A stretch of DNA of 64,000 bases from an uncultured Prevotella sp. (GTDB taxonomy: Bacteria; Bacteroidota; Bacteroidia; Bacteroidales; Bacteroidaceae). The stretch covers positions 62,001 to 126,000 of the forward strand of contig NZ_CAMJOS010000006.1 in assembly GCF_946407605.1 (NCBI RefSeq), written 5' to 3'. Positions 10,155-61,800 of this stretch are shown one piece after another (within the stretch, counting starts at the first letter, position 1; each line of letters opens with the position of its first letter). The notes under the pieces were generated by a model. The model saw nothing but the letters and a program-made list of their open reading frames with translations. It did no database searches and had not been told where the DNA came from. The translations under genes and the position numbers were made by a program.

Positions 10155-11024
10155 ATGAAGAAAGCACTGATAGCAGCATCTGCAATCTTAATGATTGGAC
10201 TGGCCGCACTGGTGGTATATTTGCTGATGGACAACAGACAGCTGGAGCAGGAGCGAATAGAGATGCAGGAGCTGGCCGAGTTGGACAAGCAGGAAATGGA
10301 GAACGACTACGAGCGTCTGTCGCTGCAGTATAGCGAGATGATGACGCAGATTAACAACGACTCGATTATTGCACAGCTGACACAGGAGCAGATGCGCACC
10401 CAGCAGTTGCTGCAGGAGCTGAAGCAGGTGAAGGCCAACGACGCTCGCGAGATTACCCGTCTGAAGAAAGAGCTGGCCACTGTTCGCGAGGTGCTGCGTT
10501 CGTATATCCGTCAGGTGGACTCGCTGAACCAGGTGAATCAGAACCTCATAGCTGAGAACGATCGTGTGAACAGGGAACTGGAACAGTCGAACCGTGCCAA
10601 CGAGGGTCTGAAGCAGGAGCGTCAGAACCTAACAGAGAAGGTGGCCATCGCCGCCCAGCTCGACGCCACAGGCATCAGCATGACGCTGCTGAACAAACGT
10701 CAGAAGGCAGCTAAGAAAATCAAGGATGCCAAGACTATTCAGGTGAACTTCACCATCGCTCGCAACGTGACTGCCGAGAATGGCAATCGCACGCTGTATG
10801 TACGCATCCAGACCCCTGCAGGTCAGACGCTGACAGCAGGCACCTTTGCCTATGAGAACCGTCAACTGGAGTACTCCATGAAGAAAGTGGTGGAGTATGC
10901 TGGCGAGGAGGTTAGCGTTCAGACCTTCTGGACTGTGGGCGAATACCTGGAGGCAGGACAGTATCGCGTCAGCATCTTTGACGAGGGCAACATGATTGGA
11001 ACCAAGACCTTTAACTTTGAATAA
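10155..11024 (+). CDS. Membrane-anchored coiled-coil protein of unknown function
   Basis: N-terminal TM helix, long heptad-rich coiled coil, C-terminal beta-type domain (NRTLYVRIQTPAGQTLTAG...); 289 aa. Confidence 0.75.
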   Translation: MKKALIAASAILMIGLAALVVYLLMDNRQLEQERIEMQELAELDKQEMENDYERLSLQYSEMMTQINNDSIIAQLTQEQMRTQQLLQELKQVKANDAREITRLKKELATVREVLRSYIRQVDSLNQVNQNLIAENDRVNRELEQSNRANEGLKQERQNLTEKVAIAAQLDATGISMTLLNKRQKAAKKIKDAKTIQVNFTIARNVTAENGNRTLYVRIQTPAGQTLTAGTFAYENRQLEYSMKKVVEYAGEEVSVQTFWTVGEYLEAGQYRVSIFDEGNMIGTKTFNFE

Positions 11025-11051
11025 AAAGGTAAAACTACTAAGAAAAAGATA

Positions 11052-12566
11052 ATGAATATGAAAGGACTGAATAGGGTGAAAAGCGGGGTGAAAAGGTTAT
11101 TGCCTTTTTACCTTTTGACCTTTTTGCCTTTATCCGCTGGAGCCCAGCAGATGTTGAGCCTGGACAGCTGTAGAGCTATGGCCTTGCGAAACAACAAGCA
11201 GATGGGCGTCAACCAGCTGAAGCAGGAGGTGGCTGCCAACCTGAGAAAGTCGGCACGCACCAAGTACCTGCCTCACATCAGTGCCATCGGCACTTATCAG
11301 TACACCAGCGAAGAGGTGTCAATCCTGAACAACGAACAGAAGGGTGCACTCTCGAACCTAGGCACTAACGCCATGACGAAGGTGGGTACGATGGCAGCGC
11401 AGATGGGCTATCCGTTGGATGCTCTTGCACAGCAGATGCCACAGCTGGCACAAGGTCTTGGCACAGCTACTGACCTGCTGAACAATGGTGGTCAGAAGAT
11501 TGTGGACGCCCTGCGTACTGACACTCGAAACATCTTTGCAGGTACCATCATGGTGACCCAGCCCGTGTTCCTGGGGGGTAGCATCACGGCTCTGAACCGC
11601 ATTGCTGACCTGAACGAGCAGATGACGAAAAACTCGAGCGACGCACAGCGCCAGGCTATCCTCTACAGTACTGACCAGACCTACTGGCAGGTGGTGTCGC
11701 TGAAGCATAAGCAGCGTCTGGCACAGAGCTATCTGGACCTCATCAAGAAGTTCGATAGCGACGTGCAGAAGATGATTGAGGAAGGTGTTGCCACCAAGAG
11801 CGACGGCCTCAGCGTCAGCGTGAAGGTTAACGAGGCCGAGATGACGCTGCAGAAGGTGAACGACGGCTTGGAGCTGTCGAAGATGCTGCTCTGTCAGATG
11901 GTGGGACTGCCTATGGACGAAGCCATCACCCTGGCCGATGAGGACAGCGAGGACTTAGGACTCACAGGCTCTGAGACCCCTGTCAGCCCCATCAGCACCA
12001 GAGTGTCGTCAGCCATTGAGAACCGTCCTGAGCTGAAGATGCTCGAAAACACCGTTGATATCAGCAAGCAAGCTACCAACGTGCTGAAGGCAGGCAACCT
12101 GCCTATGGTAGCCTTGACAGGTGGTTATGTGGTGAGCAACCCCAATATGCTGGACGGCTTCGAAAAGAAGTTCGGCGGCTTCTGGAATGTGGGCGTGCTG
12201 GTTCGTGTGCCCCTTTGGAACTGGGGCGATGTAGCCTATAAGGTACGTGCCTCGAAGGGTGTCACCGCCATTGCCAACCTCGAGTTGCAGGAGATTCGTG
12301 AGAAGATTGAGCTGCAGGTGAACCAAAACAGCCTGAAGGTCGATGAGGCCAACAAGCGCCTGATGCTCGCACAGACAGGCATCAAGAAGGCTGAGGAGAA
12401 CCTGCGTACTGCCAACCTCGGCTTCAAGGAAGGTGTCATCGCCCCCACGGTGGTGATGGAGGCCCAGACGGCCTGGCTGCAGGCACAGTCACAGCTCATC
12501 GATGCCCAGATTGACGTGAAGCTCACACATGTTGACCTGCAGAAGTCGCTGGGTACACTCTATTAA
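11052..12566 (+). CDS. TolC-family outer membrane efflux protein
   Basis: LSLDSCRAMALRNNKQMGVNQLKQEVAANLRKSARTKYLPHISAIGTYQ... followed by HlyD and ABC-2 genes. Confidence 0.92.
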   Translation: MNMKGLNRVKSGVKRLLPFYLLTFLPLSAGAQQMLSLDSCRAMALRNNKQMGVNQLKQEVAANLRKSARTKYLPHISAIGTYQYTSEEVSILNNEQKGALSNLGTNAMTKVGTMAAQMGYPLDALAQQMPQLAQGLGTATDLLNNGGQKIVDALRTDTRNIFAGTIMVTQPVFLGGSITALNRIADLNEQMTKNSSDAQRQAILYSTDQTYWQVVSLKHKQRLAQSYLDLIKKFDSDVQKMIEEGVATKSDGLSVSVKVNEAEMTLQKVNDGLELSKMLLCQMVGLPMDEAITLADEDSEDLGLTGSETPVSPISTRVSSAIENRPELKMLENTVDISKQATNVLKAGNLPMVALTGGYVVSNPNMLDGFEKKFGGFWNVGVLVRVPLWNWGDVAYKVRASKGVTAIANLELQEIREKIELQVNQNSLKVDEANKRLMLAQTGIKKAEENLRTANLGFKEGVIAPTVVMEAQTAWLQAQSQLIDAQIDVKLTHVDLQKSLGTLY

Positions 12567-16054: not shown

Positions 16055-17101
16055 TTACTGAACCAACAAACGGCGTGCAAACTCGATGATGGTGTCGTAG
16101 CCTTTGGCGAAGTCCTCATCAGTCTGTTGTACGTTGTAGTCAGGTTCTATGCCAAACTCTGTTGAGTTGCCCTGTGCGTCGTACATCGGCACAGCAGAGA
16201 AGCGTACGCTCCAGCCGTTGGGCAGACTGCTGTTGAAGGGCATGCCCGCGCCTCCACCCGTATGGTCGCCCACCAGTATCACGTTGGGCAGCGTCTTCAT
16301 ATATACGGCAAACTCGTTGGCAGCACTATATACCTGACGATTGGTCAGCAACACTGCCTTTTTGTTCCATCTGAGGTTTGACGATGGTTCCAGATAGCGA
16401 GCCTCACGACCAGAGAAGTCCTGGTGTCCTGGTCCCGTCTTATGCTGGTAGTAGCCCACCAGCGTCTTCTCCTGACAGAAGCGTGCCGCCAGCTTCTCAG
16501 CGTTGGTCAACGTGCCCCCGCTGTTGTTGCGTATATCGATAATCACGCCCCTACACAGCAGCATGTATTTCATCACCTCGTCTATATTCCCCTCGCCAAT
16601 GGCGTTGTTGAAGCTCTCGTAGCGAATATAGCCGATGTTGTCGTCCAGAATCTTATAGTCCAGTCCAGAGGCAATCTGGTAGTCTGTACCCATATAGCGT
16701 CGCAGCAGGGTGTCGCTGAAGTTGGTGGGATAGTCCTCGTACCACGACCAATATCGCCCCAGGTCGTGAGCAGCCATCAGGTTCACGTGTCCGTCGCGCA
16801 GCTCGCCCAGCATGTCGCTCAGCACCTCAAACAACTGTTTGTTGGTCATCTGGTTGTTCACGCGTACCTTATATTTATTATATACCTGCTGCCAGTCCAG
16901 TCCATAGGCCTCGTGTTTATACTCAAAGAAACAGTAGTGCTCGTCCATAATCTTCCACAGCGCCTCGAAGTTGCCCATGGGCGTATCGTCATACTGCTCC
17001 TCATCCACGCAACTTGATAAAAGTAAAAAGGTAAAGAGGTAAAGAGGTAAAAAACTTTTTACCCACCCAATTATCTTGTCTATCATACGAGTTTCCATCA
17101 T
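16055..17101 (-). CDS. S41-family C-terminal processing peptidase, lipoprotein
   Basis: LLLSSCVDEEQYDDTPMGNFEALWKIMDEHYCFFEYK...GVIIDIRNNSGGTLTNAEKLAARF...LTNRQVYSAANEFAVYMK. ORF extends to 17116 but those codons lie in repeat DNA. Confidence 0.87.
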   Translation of the reverse strand: MMETRMIDKIIGWVKSFLPLYLFTFLLLSSCVDEEQYDDTPMGNFEALWKIMDEHYCFFEYKHEAYGLDWQQVYNKYKVRVNNQMTNKQLFEVLSDMLGELRDGHVNLMAAHDLGRYWSWYEDYPTNFSDTLLRRYMGTDYQIASGLDYKILDDNIGYIRYESFNNAIGEGNIDEVMKYMLLCRGVIIDIRNNSGGTLTNAEKLAARFCQEKTLVGYYQHKTGPGHQDFSGREARYLEPSSNLRWNKKAVLLTNRQVYSAANEFAVYMKTLPNVILVGDHTGGGAGMPFNSSLPNGWSVRFSAVPMYDAQGNSTEFGIEPDYNVQQTDEDFAKGYDTIIEFARRLLVQ

Positions 17102-17103
17102 TC

Positions 17104-17173
17104 TTTCAACTTTCACCTTTCAACTTTCACCTTTCAACTTTCACCTTTCAACTTTCACCTTTCAACTTTCACC
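17104..17173 (-). repeat. 14-bp tandem repeat x5 (tttcaactttcacc; minus strand GGTGAAAGTTGAAA)
   Basis: Five consecutive perfect units read directly. Confidence 0.95.
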
Positions 17174-17936
17174 TTTCCACCACGATTCCCACAAGGAATC
17201 GGTGAGAATAGACGTGCTGTTTCAGGTTGTTCACCTGCAACTGCTGGTAGTCGCCCAGATAGCCCAACGTGAGGGCTGTAGATGACGAGAAATGCCATGC
17301 TGCCGTGATCTGCTGGCGAAACGAGGGTTGCGAGACGAAGGTGGTTGGCACGATATTATGGTCGTAGTTGCCTAACGAGAAAATCTCGTAGTACGACTGT
17401 CCGTAGTTAGGACTGAACACCAGTCCGCATAGCGGCAGGTCCAGCTCATAGCGCAGCGAGAACTGCTTCAGCTGATAGGTGGCGATGCCTGATGGCCGCA
17501 GCTGCAGCCCTACGCGAGCCTGCGCAGGGTTGTTGCCGTTGCGAGTGTTATAGATAAACCCCAGCCCCAGATCGCACATAGCGCCCGCCTGCAGCTTCAG
17601 GTTGCCGTCCATCAGTTGCCAGGCATGATAGCGTCCTACGTAGAGGTTATAGCCGCCCTCCAGCTCTGTGCCTTTCTCAGCCCTGTCGTCACATTTCGAA
17701 AGGTTCAGCTGGTGCTGCCACACCCACGACCAATTTAAGTTTTTAGTTTTGAGGTTTGGAGTTTTGCCATACTCGCTAGTGGCGAGAAAGGTCAATCCTG
17801 TGCCTTTGAATTTCTCTTGTGAGAGGTAGGTGTCCAGTATCTGTGTGGGGCCTATGCCCAACTGGTAGCTCTTCTGAGCCAGCGTGCTGACGCTGATCAG
17901 AAGGCCGATAACCGTTAACCAATAACCCTTCACCAT
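17169..17936 (-). CDS. DUF3316 family protein
   Basis: [58 protein letters not shown].... Stop codon lies in the adjoining repeat array. Confidence 0.75.
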
Positions 17937-39716: not shown

Positions 39717-40961
39717 ATGCAATTACCTGACGAATTTGTATGCAAAACCTGCGACTTGATGGGACAGGAACGCTTCGAACGCTATCTGCAGTCGTTCGAT
39801 GAGGAGCCTCCCGTCAGCATTCGTCTAAACCCCAAGAAAACATCTGACGACAGATGGCAAATGGCAGATAAGGCCGAGCCTGTGCCCTGGTGTCGCAACG
39901 CCTACTATCTGAGCAAGCGCCCCAATTTCACCTTCGACCCGCTGTTTCATGCAGGCTGCTACTATGTGCAGGAGGCCGCTTCGATGTTTATCGACGAGGC
40001 CCTTCGCCAACATCTTCCCTCTGACATCAGCCATCTCGCATCACTCGATATGTGTGCTGCCCCAGGCGGCAAGTCAACACTCCTGCGTGCTGCACTACCC
40101 CAAGACAGCGTGCTCTATAGCAACGAGCCCATCCGCAATCGTGCCAGCATCCTGCTGGAGAACGTGCAGAAGTGGGGCTACGAGCATCATTTCGTCACCA
40201 ACCTCTACCCAAAGGACTATCGCAAGGCGAAAATGCATTTCGACCTTATCCTCTGCGATGTGCCCTGCTCTGGCGAAGGCATGTTCCGCAAGGACGAGGC
40301 CACCATCAAGGAATGGAGCCCTCAGAACGTGGAGAAATGCTGGCAACTGCAGCGCGAGATAGTGAGCGACGCCTGGCAATGCTTGAATGAGGGTGGCATC
40401 CTTATATATAGTACGTGTACCTTTAATACAAAGGAAAACGAGGAGAACGTGCGCTGGATGATGGAAGAGCTGGGTGCCGAGGTGCTACCCATAGAGACAA
40501 AAGCCGAATGGCACATCACTGGCTCGCTTCTCGAAGGTTTCCATGAGCCAGTCTATCGATTCATCCCAGGCATCACCCGCAGCGAGGGCCTCTTTGCCTG
40601 CGTTTTAAGAAAAGGAAGTTTCAAAAGTGTTCCCCCATTGGGAAAAACTTGTTCCTCCATGGGGAAAAAACTATTCCTCCAAAGGGAAAAAACTATTTCT
40701 CCTATGGAAACAAATCAGATACACGCTGACGTGCCCCATGTGGAGCTGTCCTACCAGCAGGCGATGGCCTATCTGCGCGGCGAAGCCCTTCATTTGCCTG
40801 AAGAAACGCCACGCGGCGAGGTGGAGGCATGCTTCATGGGACAGTCATTAGGGCTGGCAAAGAACATTGGCACTCGCGCCAACAACCTCTACCCCAAGCC
40901 TTGGAGAATAAAGACAACACATATCCCCAACGAATACGAACCAATAATAAAACAGATATGA
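39717..40961 (+). CDS. RsmF/NOL1-NOP2-Sun family rRNA cytosine-C5 methyltransferase
   Basis: [45 protein letters not shown]...[18 protein letters not shown]...[23 protein letters not shown]. Confidence 0.92.
40629..40716 (+). repeat. 22-nt imperfect tandem repeat x4 inside the RsmF-family gene
   Basis: gttcccccattgggaaaaactt / gttcctccatggggaaaaaact / attcctccaaagggaaaaaact / atttctcctatggaaacaaatc. Confidence 0.88.
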
Positions 40962-48882: not shown

Positions 48883-48896
48883 AAATCAAGGGGGGA

Positions 48897-48988
48897 GCGG
48901 AGAGAACATTTTCGCCTTAGGGCTTTGAACCTGTTCCTCCTGGCGGAGAGAACAATTTCGCCTTAGGGCTTTGAACCTGTTCCTCCTA
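48897..48988 (-). repeat. 46-bp tandem repeat x2 abutting tRNA-Ser 3' end; each unit begins with a copy of the tRNA 3' terminus
   Basis: gcggagagaacattttcgccttagggctttgaacctgttcctcctg / gcggagagaacaatttcgccttagggctttgaacctgttcctccta, next 46-bp register = tRNA 3' end gcggagagaacagg.... Confidence 0.93.
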
Positions 48989-48989
48989 G

Positions 48990-49077
48990 CGGAGAGAACA
49001 GGATTCGAACCTGCGAACCGGTTTTGCCGGTTACACGCTTTCCAGGCGTGCCTCTTCAACCACTCGAGCACCTCTCC
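48990..49077 (-). tRNA. tRNA-Ser (anticodon GGA)
   Basis: GGAGAGGTGCTCGAGTGGTTGAAGAGGCACGCCTGGAAAGCGTGTAACCGGCAAAACCGGTTCGCAGGTTCGAATCCTGTTCTCTCCG; class II with long variable arm; anticodon loop CTGGAAA. Confidence 0.95.
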
Positions 49078-49154: not shown

Positions 49155-49955
49155 TCATTTTACGCCAAACACACGAGCCACATTCTCGTTGGTACGCGCT
49201 GTCAGCTCGTCTTCGCTGATGCCATAGGCCTCTGCCATTCGCTGAATCACATAACTGATATAAGCCGACTCATTGCGCTGACCTCGCATGGGCACAGGCG
49301 CCATATAGGGGGCATCGGTCTCTAATACGATGCGGTCTAAGGGCACTGTCTGCGGAAGGGTTTCTGGCAGATGACTCTTCTTGAAGGTCAGCACACCACC
49401 CACTCCCAGCACGAACTTGTCGAACTGTAACAGTTCCTCGGCTTCTTTCTCGTTGCCAGTAAAACAATGGAACACGCCACCAGGTAACTCTTTCGCATAC
49501 CTTTTTAATATAGCCACCAGCTCGTTCTGCGCCTTGCGACAATGAATCATCAGGGGCAGTTGCATCTCTACTGACCATCGCACCTGTTCCTCGAAGGCTT
49601 CCAGTTGCTCCTGCTCAAACTCACGACTCCAATAGAAATCAAGGCCTACCTCGCCAATGGCGAGAACGGTGAAAGGTGAAGGGTGAAGGGTGAAAGGTGA
49701 CGGGAGGATAGATTTGATTTGCGCCATCTGTTCGCGCCAGTCGGCATGCACCTCTTCAGGATGCAGGCCAATCATGGGATAAAGGAAATCAGGGTATTGC
49801 TGACAGAGGCTGACGATGCGCTGCGATGACGGCAGGTCGATGGCAGGCAGGAAGATTGCTTTGCAGCCTGCCTCTCGAGCGCGCTGCATCACCTCTACCC
49901 TATCCTGGTCAAACTCCTCGCCATCCAAATGGCAATGTGTATCGATAAAGGTCAC
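49155..49955 (-). CDS. TatD-family DNase/hydrolase
   Basis: MTFIDTHCHLDGEEFDQDRVEVMQRAREAGCKAIFLPAID...YPMIGLHPEEV...AIGEVGLDFYW...VLETDAPYMAPVPMRGQRN. Confidence 0.94.
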   Translation of the reverse strand: MTFIDTHCHLDGEEFDQDRVEVMQRAREAGCKAIFLPAIDLPSSQRIVSLCQQYPDFLYPMIGLHPEEVHADWREQMAQIKSILPSPFTLHPSPFTVLAIGEVGLDFYWSREFEQEQLEAFEEQVRWSVEMQLPLMIHCRKAQNELVAILKRYAKELPGGVFHCFTGNEKEAEELLQFDKFVLGVGGVLTFKKSHLPETLPQTVPLDRIVLETDAPYMAPVPMRGQRNESAYISYVIQRMAEAYGISEDELTARTNENVARVFGVK

Positions 49956-53502: not shown

Positions 53503-55656
53503 CTACTTTCTGATAAGCGTGGAACCCTTGATGACTGAGGGACCATCGAGCTGGAGGGCGTAGAGACCGGAAGGTAAGGTGGTGAGCGAAAGACGATAGA
53601 CGGACTGGCCAGCAGGGAGACGGACATCACGCTGCAGACGACCTCCAATGGTGAAGAGTCGCAGACGGGCCGAGACAGCGAGGGGCTCAGGAAGCGTGAT
53701 GACGAGTTCACCACCACTAACGGCGATGCGGGCAGCAGTATGCTGCTGCGAGATAGTCTCCACGCGGTCGAGGCCAAGGATATAAAGGAGTCCCCGATAG
53801 ACATCAATCTCGCCATAGCCATACTCGTTGTTGGGCCACGACATTGACTCGTCATAATGGCGTGAGGTGTGACTGATAACATCCATGACCTGCTCTGGCG
53901 TGAGGTCAGGCTTGGCCTGTAGCCACAGGGCGATGGCACCAGCCACAGCAGGACACGACATCGAGGTGCCACTATTACTGTTCCAGGCATAGGTACGCCC
54001 ATTAAAGTCGACATGTGCCACATCCCACTTGATATCATCATTGTCAGGGTGCGTCTCGAGATAGAAACTGCTATACGATGAGACGATATTATTACCTGGT
54101 GCCATCACATCAGGCTTAAGACGCCCATCAAAGGTTGGTCCCACCGATGAGAACGGTGCACGCACACCCCCATTTCCCAGCCAGTATTTCTTCCACTCAC
54201 CATTCATATTCTGGATGCTGTCGCGATAGGTGGTGGAGCCCACACAGATGACGCAAGGCGCACTGGATGGGCTGTTGATATTACAGATATACTCGCCAGC
54301 ATCGAGGTTGGGGTTCAGCGCATTGGTAGTCAGACTGCCATTGACATGGAAATACTCCACATCCGCATCGATGCCCACCACCTCGACAGACACAGGATGG
54401 CGACTGCCCACATAGCCTGTGGTTAGGACAGAGACATCATAACAGATGTCGCGAGGGTCGTAACATGAGACATAGGCCTCAGCCTTTACAGCCAGCATAT
54501 AGTCATCGAACTTCAAGAGCGAAGACTGCACGGAGTCAGGCTGTGCCAGCACCTCGCGGGTATCTACCAGCAACGTGTCTGGTTTTTCGCGATAGACCAC
54601 GAATCGCAGGGAGAAATCATCCGCCGACTTGAAGGTGAGCATCATCTCCCGACCGCCACATGACAGGAAAGCCCCCATAGAAGGCTCACCCTGATATTTG
54701 CGGAACCACGTCTTACGAGAGGCATTATTGCCAGCCGACGAGACAATGATGCAGCCTGGTCCAGTGATACTGTCAAGCATCTCATAGAACAGGCAGTCAT
54801 AGCCCCAGAAGTCCTGGTCTGAGCCCTCACTAAACGATGCCACACAGGGCTTACCCACACTCTTGGCATAGTCGAACAGATACTTAAAGCCAAGGACATC
54901 GGTGGCGAAGGTATATTTATAGATGTCAGCCGAATCGATATAGGCCAGATCATCAGACACCGCATTGGCCACCAGACAGATATCAGCCTCAGGTGCCATA
55001 CCGCCATAGGGCGAGTTGTAGCCACTCCCCGCAGCAGTGCCTGTGGTGTGGGTGCCATGTGTGATATCGAGTCCATCGCGAGAATGTCCCAAAGCCAGCA
55101 AGGCCTCGCGCCCCACATAGTCGCGTCCCACATAGAAAGGACTGCCCACCGTATCCTGGGTAACCATATCCCACATGCAACGGATGCGATAATTGGTGGT
55201 GTCACGACTATAGAACGTAGGATGCGTCAGGTCGAACCCCACATCCATCACTCCCACCACGACGCCCTGTCCTGTAAAGGCCTGCGGCAGGTTCTGACCA
55301 GCATGGGCAGGCTGCACGTTGAGGTGCTCACGGATATGGTCGTTGGTGAGACTATTACCCCTCCTGGCCTCGATGCGCAGGATGCGGGAGTCGAGCGAGA
55401 GAGCACCCAACTGGTCAACAGGAATGCTGACGATATGCACGTTGCCTGCGCTGGTCAGCACACGACAGCCATGATCCTCAAGCGCCTGATGGTCAGAGAC
55501 TTTCACAAAGGCGCAGAGCTCTTTTGACGAAGCAGGAGAAGGGAGATGCCTGGCCAGCTGACGCACGAGAGGCGACAGCTTTCCGTATTGCGGACGCTGG
55601 GCAGGCGCGACAGATGCCAACAGCCAAAACAGCAGTATGGTCAGTTTAATCCTCAA
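53503..55656 (-). CDS. S8 subtilisin-like serine peptidase with possible T9SS C-terminal domain
   Basis: Signal peptide; GVVVGVMDVGFDLTHP, HGTHTTGTAAGSGYN, NSGTSMSCPAVAGAIAL; C-term ARLRLFTIGGRLQRDVRLPAGQSVYRLSLTTLPSGLYALQL...KGSTLIRK. Confidence 0.9.
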   Translation of the reverse strand: MRIKLTILLFWLLASVAPAQRPQYGKLSPLVRQLARHLPSPASSKELCAFVKVSDHQALEDHGCRVLTSAGNVHIVSIPVDQLGALSLDSRILRIEARRGNSLTNDHIREHLNVQPAHAGQNLPQAFTGQGVVVGVMDVGFDLTHPTFYSRDTTNYRIRCMWDMVTQDTVGSPFYVGRDYVGREALLALGHSRDGLDITHGTHTTGTAAGSGYNSPYGGMAPEADICLVANAVSDDLAYIDSADIYKYTFATDVLGFKYLFDYAKSVGKPCVASFSEGSDQDFWGYDCLFYEMLDSITGPGCIIVSSAGNNASRKTWFRKYQGEPSMGAFLSCGGREMMLTFKSADDFSLRFVVYREKPDTLLVDTREVLAQPDSVQSSLLKFDDYMLAVKAEAYVSCYDPRDICYDVSVLTTGYVGSRHPVSVEVVGIDADVEYFHVNGSLTTNALNPNLDAGEYICNINSPSSAPCVICVGSTTYRDSIQNMNGEWKKYWLGNGGVRAPFSSVGPTFDGRLKPDVMAPGNNIVSSYSSFYLETHPDNDDIKWDVAHVDFNGRTYAWNSNSGTSMSCPAVAGAIALWLQAKPDLTPEQVMDVISHTSRHYDESMSWPNNEYGYGEIDVYRGLLYILGLDRVETISQQHTAARIAVSGGELVITLPEPLAVSARLRLFTIGGRLQRDVRLPAGQSVYRLSLTTLPSGLYALQLDGPSVIKGSTLIRK

Positions 55657-56587
55657 ATCTCAAAAGTTCATCCCTGCATTGCTCCATCAGCCATTTTGGT
55701 GTAGAGGTAGCTCCGCAGATGCCTACCGTCTGAATATCCTTGAGCCACTCAGCATGAATCTCCTCCGGTCCCTCAATCTGATGCGTGTTGGGATTCACTC
55801 GCAGGCACTCGTTATAAAGCACCTTACCGTTAGAGCTCTTCCTTCCGCACACAAAGAGGATCAGGTCGTGACGTGCTGCAAACTGCGAGATGTTAGGCAT
55901 GCGGTTGGCCACAGAACGACAGATAGTATCAAAGCTCTGGAACACAGCATCAGGTGAGATATGCGCCTGGATATATGCCACGATACGGTGGAACTCATCC
56001 AGCGACTTCGTGGTCTGACTGTAAAGATAGATATCACGCGAGAAGTCGAGTTTCGTCACCTCGTCGAAGTTCTCAATGACGATAGCAGTTGACTGCGTCT
56101 GTCCCACCAATCCCAACACCTCAGCATGACCTTTCTTGCCAAAGATGACAATCTGGGGGGAAAGACTATCCTCTTTCCACCTTCCACTTTCCACTTTCCT
56201 CTTTCCTCTTTCTTGCGTCCCTTCGGTAGCAAGCGACCTTAGGTCGAGCGCCTCTTTCCACTTTTCCTTGATACGGTTCTGCAGCTTCAGCACCACAGGA
56301 CAGGTAGCATCGATAATCTCGATATTATTCTGACGGGCCAACTCGTAGGTGGCAGGCGGCTCACCATGAGCACGCAACAGCACCTTGACATCGTGCAACT
56401 CACGCATATCGTCGTGGTTGATGGTGACGAGTCCCATCTGTCGTAAGCGTTCACACTCCATGCCATTGTGTACAATATCGCCCAGGCAATAGAGCGTCTC
56501 GCCCTGTGCCAGCTCTTCTTCGGCTTTCTTGATGGCGGTGGTCACTCCAAAGCAGAAGCCACTGCCGTTGTCTATCTCTATCTGCAT
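55646..56587 (-). CDS. ispH: 4-hydroxy-3-methylbut-2-enyl diphosphate reductase, with internal repeat-like insertion
   Basis: MQIEIDNGSGFCFGVTTAIKKAEEELAQGETLYCLGDIVHNGMECERL...IDATCPVVLKLQNRIKEKW...VIFGKKGHAEVLGLVGQTQSTAIVIE. Confidence 0.93.
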   Translation of the reverse strand: MQIEIDNGSGFCFGVTTAIKKAEEELAQGETLYCLGDIVHNGMECERLRQMGLVTINHDDMRELHDVKVLLRAHGEPPATYELARQNNIEIIDATCPVVLKLQNRIKEKWKEALDLRSLATEGTQERGKRKVESGRWKEDSLSPQIVIFGKKGHAEVLGLVGQTQSTAIVIENFDEVTKLDFSRDIYLYSQTTKSLDEFHRIVAYIQAHISPDAVFQSFDTICRSVANRMPNISQFAARHDLILFVCGRKSSNGKVLYNECLRVNPNTHQIEGPEEIHAEWLKDIQTVGICGATSTPKWLMEQCRDELLRFED

Positions 56588-56633
56588 TTTTCTTTCTTTT
56601 ATGGGTCTTATGGGACTCATAGGCCTATTGGGC

Positions 56634-57781: not shown

Positions 57782-58876
57782 TCATTTCACGTTAACCTTG
57801 ATGACCACCTTCGCGTGGTCGGGATCATTGGTAATCATCAGCACACGGGGTTTCTGACGCGCCTTGAGCAACTGACTCCTGTCAGACATCGCAATCTTGA
57901 GCTTTGTCGACTCACGGGGTTGCAGCTCGCGCTTGTCGAGTGTCACCTTCAGGCCCTTCGTAAACATCTGTAATGATGATATCTTCAGGGCAGTACGTCC
58001 CGTGTTAGTGATGGTAATCACCTCACTTTTACGCTTCTTGCCTTTGACCACGCCCAGTGTCAGCGAGTCGGCAGAGAGCTCCAGATGGGGCGCATACTGT
58101 TTGTTGCTGCCAGCATACAACGTGGTGTTGGGCAGCAGCACCACCGACACAGGCAACTCCGTATCAGCACTCACCCTATTACCCAGCTGCTCAGCCAGAT
58201 AGACCGTGGTCTGCGTCAGTCCGAAGTCATGAAGATGCTCAGTGTTCAACATCAGCGTCACCTTGCCAGAACGACCAGGTGCCAGCGTCTCGGGTGTTGC
58301 CATCGAAATGAGATAAGGTGGCAGATGCTGTATGTTAGGCGTCATCACACTACCGCCATTGTTCAGCACGTGAATCTCCACCTCAGGATGCTCGCCCTGT
58401 TTCACATCATCAAACTCCACATTATTCACATCTGCCAGCAGGTCGCCAAAGGCATAGGGGTAGTTCTTCGAGTGGTCAGTCAACTCAGTCACCACCACAC
58501 CCTTCATTGTCAACCAAAGCGGCTTCTCTGAATGGTTGAACCATACAGCGGCCTGCTTCGTGAAATGTCCTAACTGACGGGCATCGAAGGTCATGGAGAT
58601 GGTGAACCTATCACCACCACCAATGCTCTTCTTGGGGTAGTCCACCTTGGTGCATCCACAGTCGGTCTTGACGTCAACGATAGAAAGATGACGACTGCCT
58701 TTGTTCTTCAGTTGGAAGGTGGCTGTCACAGGCATCTCAAAGCCCGTCTTTCCCACGTTAACCTCAGGATGGTCAACCTGTACCTTCTGGGCATTTAAAG
58801 GTAGAAAGGCAAACAGGTAAAAAGGTAAAATACCCAATACCCGCCATAACACCTTATTTATTTTCTTATGAGTCAT
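57782..58876 (-). CDS. DUF1573 domain-containing protein
   Basis: HPEVNVGKTGFEMPVTATFQLKNKGSRHLSIVDVKTDCGCTKVDYPKKSIGGGDRFTISMTFDARQLGHFTKQAAVWFN. Confidence 0.88.
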   Translation of the reverse strand: MTHKKINKVLWRVLGILPFYLFAFLPLNAQKVQVDHPEVNVGKTGFEMPVTATFQLKNKGSRHLSIVDVKTDCGCTKVDYPKKSIGGGDRFTISMTFDARQLGHFTKQAAVWFNHSEKPLWLTMKGVVVTELTDHSKNYPYAFGDLLADVNNVEFDDVKQGEHPEVEIHVLNNGGSVMTPNIQHLPPYLISMATPETLAPGRSGKVTLMLNTEHLHDFGLTQTTVYLAEQLGNRVSADTELPVSVVLLPNTTLYAGSNKQYAPHLELSADSLTLGVVKGKKRKSEVITITNTGRTALKISSLQMFTKGLKVTLDKRELQPRESTKLKIAMSDRSQLLKARQKPRVLMITNDPDHAKVVIKVNVK

Positions 58877-58889
58877 TCCTTTTACAATT

Positions 58890-61800
58890 TTAGTCTTTTA
58901 CTTCTATGGTTTGCGATTTGGCAACACCGCGGAACTCAGGACTATAGGCACAACTGGCGGTGCAGGTGCCTGTCTCATAGGTGCCCACGCGGTCAATGTA
59001 ATACTCTGTCTCAATGACGTGCTTACCCTTCGACAGCCTATCGAAATAATAGTTGGTAGAGCAGTCGCGAGGTGTGGTATAGTAGCCCCAGCGATACCCA
59101 CTCACCTGATAGACAGGCTCCATACATGCAGCCCGTTTGTCGATGACCTGTACAAAGTCATAATCGCGGTCAGCCTCGATGGTGATGCGGACTATCACGC
59201 GCTGACCCACATGACACTGGCCACTCATCACCTCATGCTTATCACTACTCAGCATCTCACGCTTCACGCTGATGCCACTGTTCTGCTCCTCAACCTCGCT
59301 GGTGTTCTGCATATACTGCATATAGACAGCACCCCACGAGGTTCCTGTAGAGGTCTTCTCGGCAGTAAACAGCTTCTTGTCATCACCAGACATGGCGGTC
59401 TTCACATAACCAATGCCGGCAGTAGCCTGTGAGGTCTCAATCTCGTTACCATCAACCTTCAGGACGGTCTTAGCCTGAGCCTTCAGTGCCTCGCTATTGC
59501 CATTGAGGAAGGCATACACAGCATCAGCACTATTGATAGGCGTATCCCAGGCCTGGTTGCGCTTCTCCTGCAACAGCCAGCGCTGCATCTCCTCGATGGT
59601 CTGCTTGTCATTGGGTGTCAGTCGTTTGATGGCCTCAATGGCAGCCACCTGTGTGGGTATGCGGAAGTTACGCCAGGAGTAGAAGGCACGTGGTGTGTCG
59701 TAATAGCGCCCCATCTCCTCTTTATAGACGGTATATTCCTTCAGACTCTTGATATAGGTCTTATCGTTCAGCACGATAGCCGACATCGCCTTGTCGTAGA
59801 TGCTCTGGTTACGTGTCTCCTTCTTTAATAATTTAATAAGGTATGCGTTAGCCTCCTGTACGTTGGCAGGCAGTGAACGACCATCAAGGGTACAGATGTA
59901 AAGCCACTGCAAGGCCATATGACTGGGGAACGTGGGTGTCCAGCCACGTTTGGCGTCTTTCTTCATCTCACGTACCATCTCCACAATCTCCTTACCCATA
60001 AAGCTGAAGGCATCACTGAGCATCTCACGGGTGTCAGACTGTTTGGTGGTCATCTGGTTCAGACGTACCAACATCTCACTGATCTCGACAGTCATATACA
60101 TCGAGCCAGTCATGCCAGGCCACCAGCTCCATGAGCCATCATCCTGTTGCAGGTCCTCAAGGTTCTCCAGCGAAGTGGCCAGACGCTGCTCCATCAGAGC
60201 CTCATCGAAGAAGTCAGCCAGACGTTCCTTCTGTTCCTGTTCACGGTTAGCATCTGCCACCCATGGTGTCTCGTCGAGTATCAGGTCCTTGAGTTCCTCG
60301 TTCTTCTGCAGACTGCTCATCAACGAGGTCTCGCTACCCTGTTCCCTACTCCAGGCCTCAAACACGCTCTTGGCCTGCGGGTTCTGCTTCAGTATATGAC
60401 GACCTATGGCGTTGGCATAGAAAGAGGCAGCCTGACAGAGGGCGCAGTTGTCGTGTGGATGACCCACAACAGGCAGGGCCTGAATCATCAGCCAGGCGGG
60501 GTTGTTGGTGTATTCAATTGAGAATTGAGAGTTGAGGTTCGAGGTCTGAGGCTTCAGACTATTGAGGTCAATAGTCTTTGTGCCAGGCTGGTTCTGCGTG
60601 AAAGGCACGGTCTTGGTCACACGTTCCTTGTTGGGCAGGATGGGCAGGTAGTGCTGCTCACCATCGCTGAAGCCACTGCCAATGACCATCACCTTGGCTA
60701 CGAGCAGACTGCGGGTCTCATGACTGCAATCATAGGGGAAGGCGACGGCAATGGTAGCGTTTGCGGTTATCTCCACATGCTGCTCATCAGCATAGACCAC
60801 CTCCATGGTCTCTGGGTCAAGCAACTCCAGTCGGGCTTTGCCGCTAATGGTCTTGTCACCGGTATTGAAGATACGGGCAGCGATAAAAGCCTTGTCGCCC
60901 TGACGCACAAAACGCGGCAGGTTAGGCTGTATCATCACATCCTTCTTAGCAACCACCTCATCAGCCAAGATACCAGTCTTCATATCCTGGGTATGGGCCA
61001 GACCCATGAAACGCCAGGTAGTCAGACTCTCAGGCAACGTGAACTTAATAGTCACCTTACCCTCGCTATCAGCCTGCAACTGAGGATAGAAGAAAGCGGT
61101 CTCAATCAGGTTCTCACGCATCTGAGGCGCCATCTCTCCTACTGTCCCTTCCGCTGCTTGACTACTTCCAGTAAGGCGTTTGGCATGACTACCAAGACTA
61201 CCTTCACCACCAACTATATCCAGTCCTGCTATGCGACCTTGCAGGGATTCATCAACATTTTCCGCATCCAAACCAGTGAAGGCGGCATCAGCACTCACCT
61301 CCTTCATTTCCACCACTTCGTCAACAACACTCTCGTTGACCATCAGGACTTTTGTCTCAGCCAATGCCCCAAGTGCTCTCCTGCCAGAGAACATTGGACG
61401 GGCATAATAGGCGGGATAGACAGAGTGGTCAAACTTATTAAACGACAGCTCACGATAGCTCAGCGGTTTCTGTGTCACGCTACCCAAACAGCTACTCATC
61501 ATCCAGGTGCGACTGTTCCATGTGGTCGAGGGCATGGGCAGGTTGAGATAAGGTATCAGCATCCAACTATGAGGCACGAGCTGATCCAGGCTCTTGTCAT
61601 AGAGCGTGGCCATCAGCTGCGCATTAAAGGGTTTCCCGTCAGGGCTAAAGGTGTTACATGGTTTACCGTCAGGTCCAACGATAGTCAGGGTCCATTCCTC
61701 CTGTTGTCCTGGTTCCAGACGATTACGGAAGGTCTCCCACTTCAATTGCAGATTACTGTCGGGCACAGGACGACGGAGTGACTTCTCATGATGATACGTC

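Follow-up and report, generated by a model that had tools for sequence, protein, structure and literature searches.

Putative export-signal cores of unrelated proteins in rumen Prevotella are recurrently built from 7- and 8-bp repeats

In rumen Prevotella, the putative export-signal cores of unrelated proteins are recurrently built from tandem repeats of 7 or 8 bp whose translation is hydrophobic in every reading frame. We describe these arrays in a 64,000-nucleotide stretch of an uncultured Prevotella sp. (the window; contig NZ_CAMJOS010000006.1 of GCF_946407605.1, positions 62,001 to 126,000), in other parts of the same genome, and in orthologous genes of related species. We consider it probable that a repeat-generating process at indel-tolerant sites, together with selection on the orientation and unit of the arrays, brings about fast replacement of leader and signal peptide. 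The export tag could then be rewritten quickly on a protein that is otherwise almost unchanged.

Repeat-encoded signal peptides in the window

The starting point was the signal peptide of a TolC-family protein (N-terminus MNMKGLNRVKSGVKRLLPFYLLTFLPLSAGAQQM; signal peptide MNMKGLNRVKSGVKRLLPFYLLTFLPLSAGA), whose core a preliminary description had placed in short-period repeat DNA. Sequence and translation are as given there, and the core contains an 8-bp array by TRF (11103-11131, 3.6 copies of the unit CCTTTTTA), with three copies at 8-bp spacing in a repeat search. The stretch quoted as repeat DNA is repetitive; it is, however, made of two parts, a purine one at 11074-11096 and a pyrimidine one at 11100-11131, which are roughly reverse complements of each other. 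We refer to the 8-bp unit of the TolC-type array as Y8. The same array recurs in the same place in two further genes, and the features of the three loci are as follows.

11052-12566, plus strand: TolC-family outer membrane efflux protein gene (open reading frame; Pfam OEP, E 1.3e-48)
11023-11050, plus strand: TolC leader, a purine-sense repeat remnant, AAAAGGTAAAA...AAGAAAAAGATAA, lying between the upstream stop codon and the ATG
11074-11096, plus strand: purine units of the TolC n-region, two GGGTGAAAAG copies, encoding VKSGVKR
11100-11131, plus strand: TolC h-region, the pyrimidine-sense 8-bp array TTGCCTTT TTACCTTT TGACCTTT TTGCCTTT, encoding LPFYLLTFLPL (TRF, repeat search, recoding null)
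16055-17101, minus strand: S41 peptidase lipoprotein gene with a Y8-encoded signal peptide (Pfam Peptidase_S41, E 3.5e-32)
17023-17051, minus strand: Y8 array encoding LPLYLFTFL of the S41 signal peptide (TRF; recoding null 0/20000)
17103-17177, minus strand: S41 leader, a purine-sense heptamer array (GGTGAAAGTTGAAA)n that adjoins the ATG (TRF, 10.7 copies)
57782-58876, minus strand: DUF1573 protein gene with a Y8-encoded signal peptide (Pfam DUF1573, E 2.9e-37)
58797-58830, minus strand: Y8 array encoding LPFYLFAFLP of the DUF1573 signal peptide (TRF; recoding null)
58877-58906, minus strand: DUF1573 leader, a degenerate purine-sense repeat (AAGTAAAAGACTAAAATTGTAAAAGGA) before the ATG

The two n-region copies of GGGTGAAAAG in TolC, at 11074-11083 and 11086-11095, approximate the reverse complement of the array unit. 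The repeat search pairs 11087-11096 with 11103-11112 and 11024-11034 with 11106-11116 as inverted arms; in the second pair, the leader sequence AAAAGGTAAAA is a perfect complement of part of the h-region array. Signal peptides in the window were judged by eye and with a crude rule, and denote putative export only. TolC has the layout of a Sec-type signal peptide (VK..VKR, LPFYLLTFLPL, SAGA-Q), and the S41 protein has that of a lipoprotein (LLLSSC). The near-identity of these peptides on unrelated mature domains, also claimed beforehand, was borne out: the three proteins belong to separate Pfam families.

Distribution of the arrays and chance expectation

A search of the whole genome with Y8 gave 20 forward and 29 reverse matches, and the reversed control gave 0. 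These merge into about 26 sites, of which 13 are N-terminal and pyrimidine-sense, 8 are in 5' leaders and purine-sense, and 5 are others; most of the N-terminal sites are clear signal peptides, and two or three lie in frames that are short or doubtful (L006, L181). In three further species the search gave 19 N-terminal sites, a few of them in doubtful frames, 19 leader sites, and 1 other. The signal-peptide DNA does match a repeat found outside coding sequence, as the preliminary description expected, since Y8 occurs there in purine sense in 5' leaders. Y8 abundance is genus-specific and bimodal: counts range from 0 to 197 across 150 genomes of the genus, 95 of which contain matches, and stay at control level in 149 genomes across the order. 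The Y8 abundance of a genome has no visible association with the use of Y8 in its own TolC signal peptide, and the signal-peptide unit matched units elsewhere in the same 10-kb locus in 1 of 24 cases, a comparison without power.

Families with Y8 signal peptides in this genome comprise OEP, S41, DUF1573, SusD, aspartyl protease, SPOR, trypsin-like, DUF4835, DUF5683, and TPR, and no similarity was detectable between the mature parts of this genome's Y8 signal-peptide genes. Repeat-encoded signal peptides also occur on the type IX secretion genes PorZ (L224) and GldK/PorK (L227), to which L219 and L237, respectively, are homologous. The arrays of L219 and L224, the same gene in two species, are about 65 and 36 nt long, an in-frame length change.

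How often chance yields such arrays was estimated in several ways. When the same peptides were recoded synonymously with the codon usage of the genome's own N-termini, the observed periodicity was reached in 3 of 20,000 trials for TolC, 0 of 20,000 for S41, and 53 of 20,000 for DUF1573. A 464-kb sample (the window plus 400 kb of the same genome, G000) holds 52 period-7 and 16 period-8 arrays, and local shuffling leaves 1 and 0; another genome of the genus, G016, has 8 and 0 in 400 kb. N-terminal pyrimidine arrays were found in 7 of 120 signal peptide-like genes of the sample versus 1 of 215 others, and in 22 of 322 versus 0 of 307 across 80 species, with codon shuffling expecting 0.18 in each set; "signal peptide-like" here denotes a crude hydrophobicity rule rather than SignalP, and many of the compared genomes are draft MAGs. 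The sole exception in the sample (MKRLSIFIFLFLNILIFNSC) resembles a lipoprotein missed by the crude test. N-terminal purine arrays, counted alongside in the two sets, numbered 0 and 1.

Arrays also occur in variable loops of two enzymes of the window, both named from sequence motifs.

49664-49700, minus strand: heptamer array in a variable loop of a TatD-like DNase (gene 49155-49955)
56165-56212, minus strand: heptamer array in a variable loop of IspH (gene 55646-56620)

Among 30 orthologues of each, about 8 TatD and 4 to 5 IspH loops have arrays, with units that differ by species; the remaining orthologues have no loop array, and some IspH loops are short. Signal peptides make up 3% of the coding DNA but hold 6 of its 25 arrays (p 1e-4), and an array score of 12 was reached once in 20,000 codon-shuffled stretches. 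Since similar arrays occupy loops of the cytosolic enzymes IspH and TatD, signal peptides are one permissive site among several, albeit an enriched one, and the loop arrays suggest a broad source of coding indels.

Other repeats are present as well. Long gene-poor stretches of G000 contain clusters of 9-bp repeats (CACAGATAC and similar; L064 5200-15200, L080 13500-14200, L076 11400-12200), and the window has longer tandem repeats of 46 bp (48896-49000), 22 bp (40623-40710), and 33 bp (852-976).

Turnover among orthologues and the origin of the arrays

The TolC set consists of 81 genes, 80 of which are named Prevotella orthologues at 63-74% identity. Their signal peptides use CCTTTTTA, GGCTTTT/GGCTATT, TTTATCA, TTTTCAA, TTTTCAC, or TTCTCACT, or have no array; arrays are present in 22 of 81, versus 0.005 expected from codon shuffling at the same score. 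On a tree of the mature proteins, with the signal peptide left out, the states (at least six 7/8-bp units or none) need at least 20 changes, a count that is blind to gain versus loss. Each distinct unit must nevertheless have arisen at least once. DUF1573 orthologues have arrays in 7 of 50 signal peptides, with four unit types. In both families orthologues thus carry unrelated signal peptides, as predicted, and an orthologue from a different genus (L051) does not share the peptide of the window. The earlier proposal that the repeat supplied a ready-made hydrophobic h-region holds insofar as arrays encode the cores. Its second half, de novo acquisition, is not supported: among the TolC and DUF1573 orthologues examined, almost all possess a signal peptide, which points to replacement. 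The position of the signal peptide is kept across orthologues.

Between close TolC relatives, replacement takes the form of a block. Homology runs to the stop codon of the upstream gene, is lost across the leader and the signal peptide, and returns where the mature protein begins (alignments L118/L120, L147/L164, and L156/L132/L162). The pair L101/L106 differs only by substitutions, so decay in place occurs too. Some arrays are inherited vertically in the same gene (L208/L239/L183; L227/L237), and array length is kept among the close relatives L137/L146/L150 and L208/L239. Separately, an 11-residue insert (LRVGDGTSGMR-like) directly follows the TolC cleavage site in several separate lineages (L128, L132, L143, L148, L257, L269); its DNA has no match elsewhere in the fetched loci.

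Leader and core arrays tend to occur together. In four genomes, a purine-sense array lies at most 70 nt before the ATG in 22 of 28 Y8 signal-peptide genes. For other genes in the fetched loci, which come from three of these genomes, the figure is 7 of 63, and it drops to 0 of 56 once leaders that were themselves search matches are set aside. Purine leader arrays are otherwise equally common on genes with and without signal peptides. The motif GGT[AG]A is found within 36 nt before the h-region in 20 of 28 Y8 signal-peptide genes versus 6 of 112 other signal-peptide genes. The reading register of Y8 is near-fixed (xLPFYLFTFLPL), which, as we read it, places a proline at either end of the hydrophobic core; copying of leader and signal peptide as a block would also account for it. 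The 28 aligned leader-plus-signal-peptide stretches share no sequence beyond the purine and pyrimidine units, and in this they do not resemble REP-, MITE-, or RPE-type elements.

In the explanation that we favor, many Prevotella genomes would keep making short tandem 7/8-bp arrays at indel-tolerant sites, and the source of arrays would be slippage or strand-switching, filtered by selection that acts on hydrophobicity and on the composition of the leader. Since neither period is divisible by 3, all frames of an array translate into one and the same cyclic peptide. The units are strand-asymmetric: one strand, usually pyrimidine-rich, is stop-free and hydrophobic (TTTTTACC reads FLPFYLFT), and the other usually has stops. 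None of the nine signal-peptide units tested has a stop in sense, and their GRAVY values are 0.73-1.96; the opposite strand carries stops in eight of nine. Selection would then sort arrays by orientation and unit, keeping the hydrophobic-coding strand as sense inside signal peptides, where about four copies make one h-region, and the purine strand in 5' leaders. The outcome would be a leader and signal peptide swapped fast ahead of a mature protein that stays conserved. GGTGAAA, the heptamer most often found in leaders, would give FHLSPFT in the other sense (GRAVY 0.44) and was not seen in this genome's signal peptides. Random insertion plus selection accommodates the near-fixed register and the shared GGT[AG]A less simply than copying of leader and signal peptide does. 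The missing association between the Y8 abundance of a genome and its TolC signal peptide, and the vertical inheritance of some arrays, also speak against the favored explanation.

Such copying is the core of an unlikely alternative, in which a block of leader, start codon, and signal peptide is exchanged between genes or species by recombination, and the repeats travel along and aid pairing. Block-like replacement between close orthologues, the common register and n-region motif, and the association of leader purine arrays with Y8 signal peptides (22 of 28 versus 0 of 56) all fit it. Against exchange, the n-regions of different Y8 genes in one genome are unlike beyond their purine units, and leaders vary both in length and in repeat unit: S41 combines a heptamer array in the leader with an octamer array in the signal peptide, and the heptamer-type signal peptide of L101 has no leader array at all.

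It is improbable that Y8 is an old signal peptide, ancestral in each gene, from which the other states descend by substitution with no ongoing repeat process. This history is consistent with Y8 recurring in several deep clades of TolC, with arrays that some genes inherit vertically, and with the L101/L106 pair; perfect arrays of TTTTCAA, TTTATCA, TTTTCAC, TTCTCACT, and GGCTTTT, however, cannot come from Y8 decay, and the IspH and TatD loop arrays differ by species.

A functional reading, which we judge very improbable, is an RNA switch: the leader purine array would pair with the pyrimidine array of the signal peptide, hide the start codon, and control translation of envelope proteins. The two arrays do occur as opposite-polarity pairs, and folding predicts strong pairing between them in several genes of G018, G152, and G000 (mean z -2.9), with the start region 0.13-0.25 unpaired in some. 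The hairpin is not predicted for the window TolC (start region 0.83 unpaired) or DUF1573, and folding rejects it as a common function there; moreover, mean start accessibility is 0.44 versus 0.50 in shuffles, and purine leader arrays are equally common on non-secreted genes. Predicted pairing that encloses the start codon is seen in L212, L221, L224, L239, L242, and L232 (G018, G152), and in these two genomes it may possibly represent translational control of envelope genes.

Phase variation, in which copy-number change shifts the frame and toggles the protein, is highly implausible, even though heptamer repeats drive it elsewhere (HMW1A, PMC8262952) and slippage by one unit shifts the frame because neither period is a multiple of 3. 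The arrays are short (about four copies) and mostly imperfect, their length is kept in the close relatives named above, and the genes, which include TolC, GldK, and PorZ, have no antigen bias. Chance resemblance, by which the T-rich codons of hydrophobic cores would make DNA look repetitive, draws on the pyrimidine bias of h-region codons, and is rejected by the synonymous-recoding and codon-shuffle nulls and by G016, where 0 of 128 signal peptide-like genes have pyrimidine arrays.

Implications and comparison with known systems

For the origin and fast divergence of signal peptides, the Prevotella repeats provide a source at the DNA level, visible in action within a single genus and with a frame-independent hydrophobic reading. 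They yield a testable rule for which units can become export signals, and in which orientation. They also explain how proteins that do not descend from a common ancestor come to carry near-identical signal peptides; shared signal peptides in these genomes are no evidence of homology. More tentatively, the paired purine-leader and pyrimidine-core array might be viewed as an "initiation plus export" module, self-generating and independent of frame, which can replace, and in principle could create, a signal peptide in one event. By the same tentative reading, a genome-wide tandem-repeat process might make signal peptides interchangeable parts.

Among the open-access papers searched we found none linking tandem repeats to Prevotella signal peptides, and an earlier description in subscription journals is possible. 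Rickettsia palindromic elements are longer palindromic elements of defined families, whereas the Prevotella arrays are tandem 7/8-mers of many units; in both, repeat DNA lies in reading frames at tolerant positions. The Rickettsia elements are mentioned in PMC10969869, among other papers, as inserts inside protein-coding genes. The heptamers of Haemophilus HMW1A (PMC8262952) are likewise tandem repeats tied to surface protein genes; there, varying copy number controls expression, whereas in Prevotella the short arrays are themselves protein-coding.

A closer parallel in placement is the TAACTGA heptamer, a direct repeat of Beggiatoaceae, Cyanobacteria, and some Bacteroidetes (MacGregor 2015, PMC4679880). 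Like the Prevotella arrays, it forms heptamer arrays just upstream of start codons, with stops on one strand and the other open in all frames, and strand-specific stops are named in that work as a control on placement. The Prevotella units (CCTTTTTA, GGTGAAA, TTTATCA, etc.) do not belong to this family. TAACTGA is one fixed unit without an opposite-polarity pair around the start codon, whereas Prevotella has many units and such pairs; signal peptides, hydrophobic cores, and transmembrane segments are never mentioned in the TAACTGA paper. For repeats that make targeting sequences, the parallel lies in the exported proteins of Plasmodium (Davies 2016, PMC5207086). That system is eukaryotic, its repeats are lysine-rich, its destination is the host-cell periphery, and its effect is experimentally shown, whereas ours is read from sequence; in both, the expansion of tandem repeats creates or tunes a protein localization signal.
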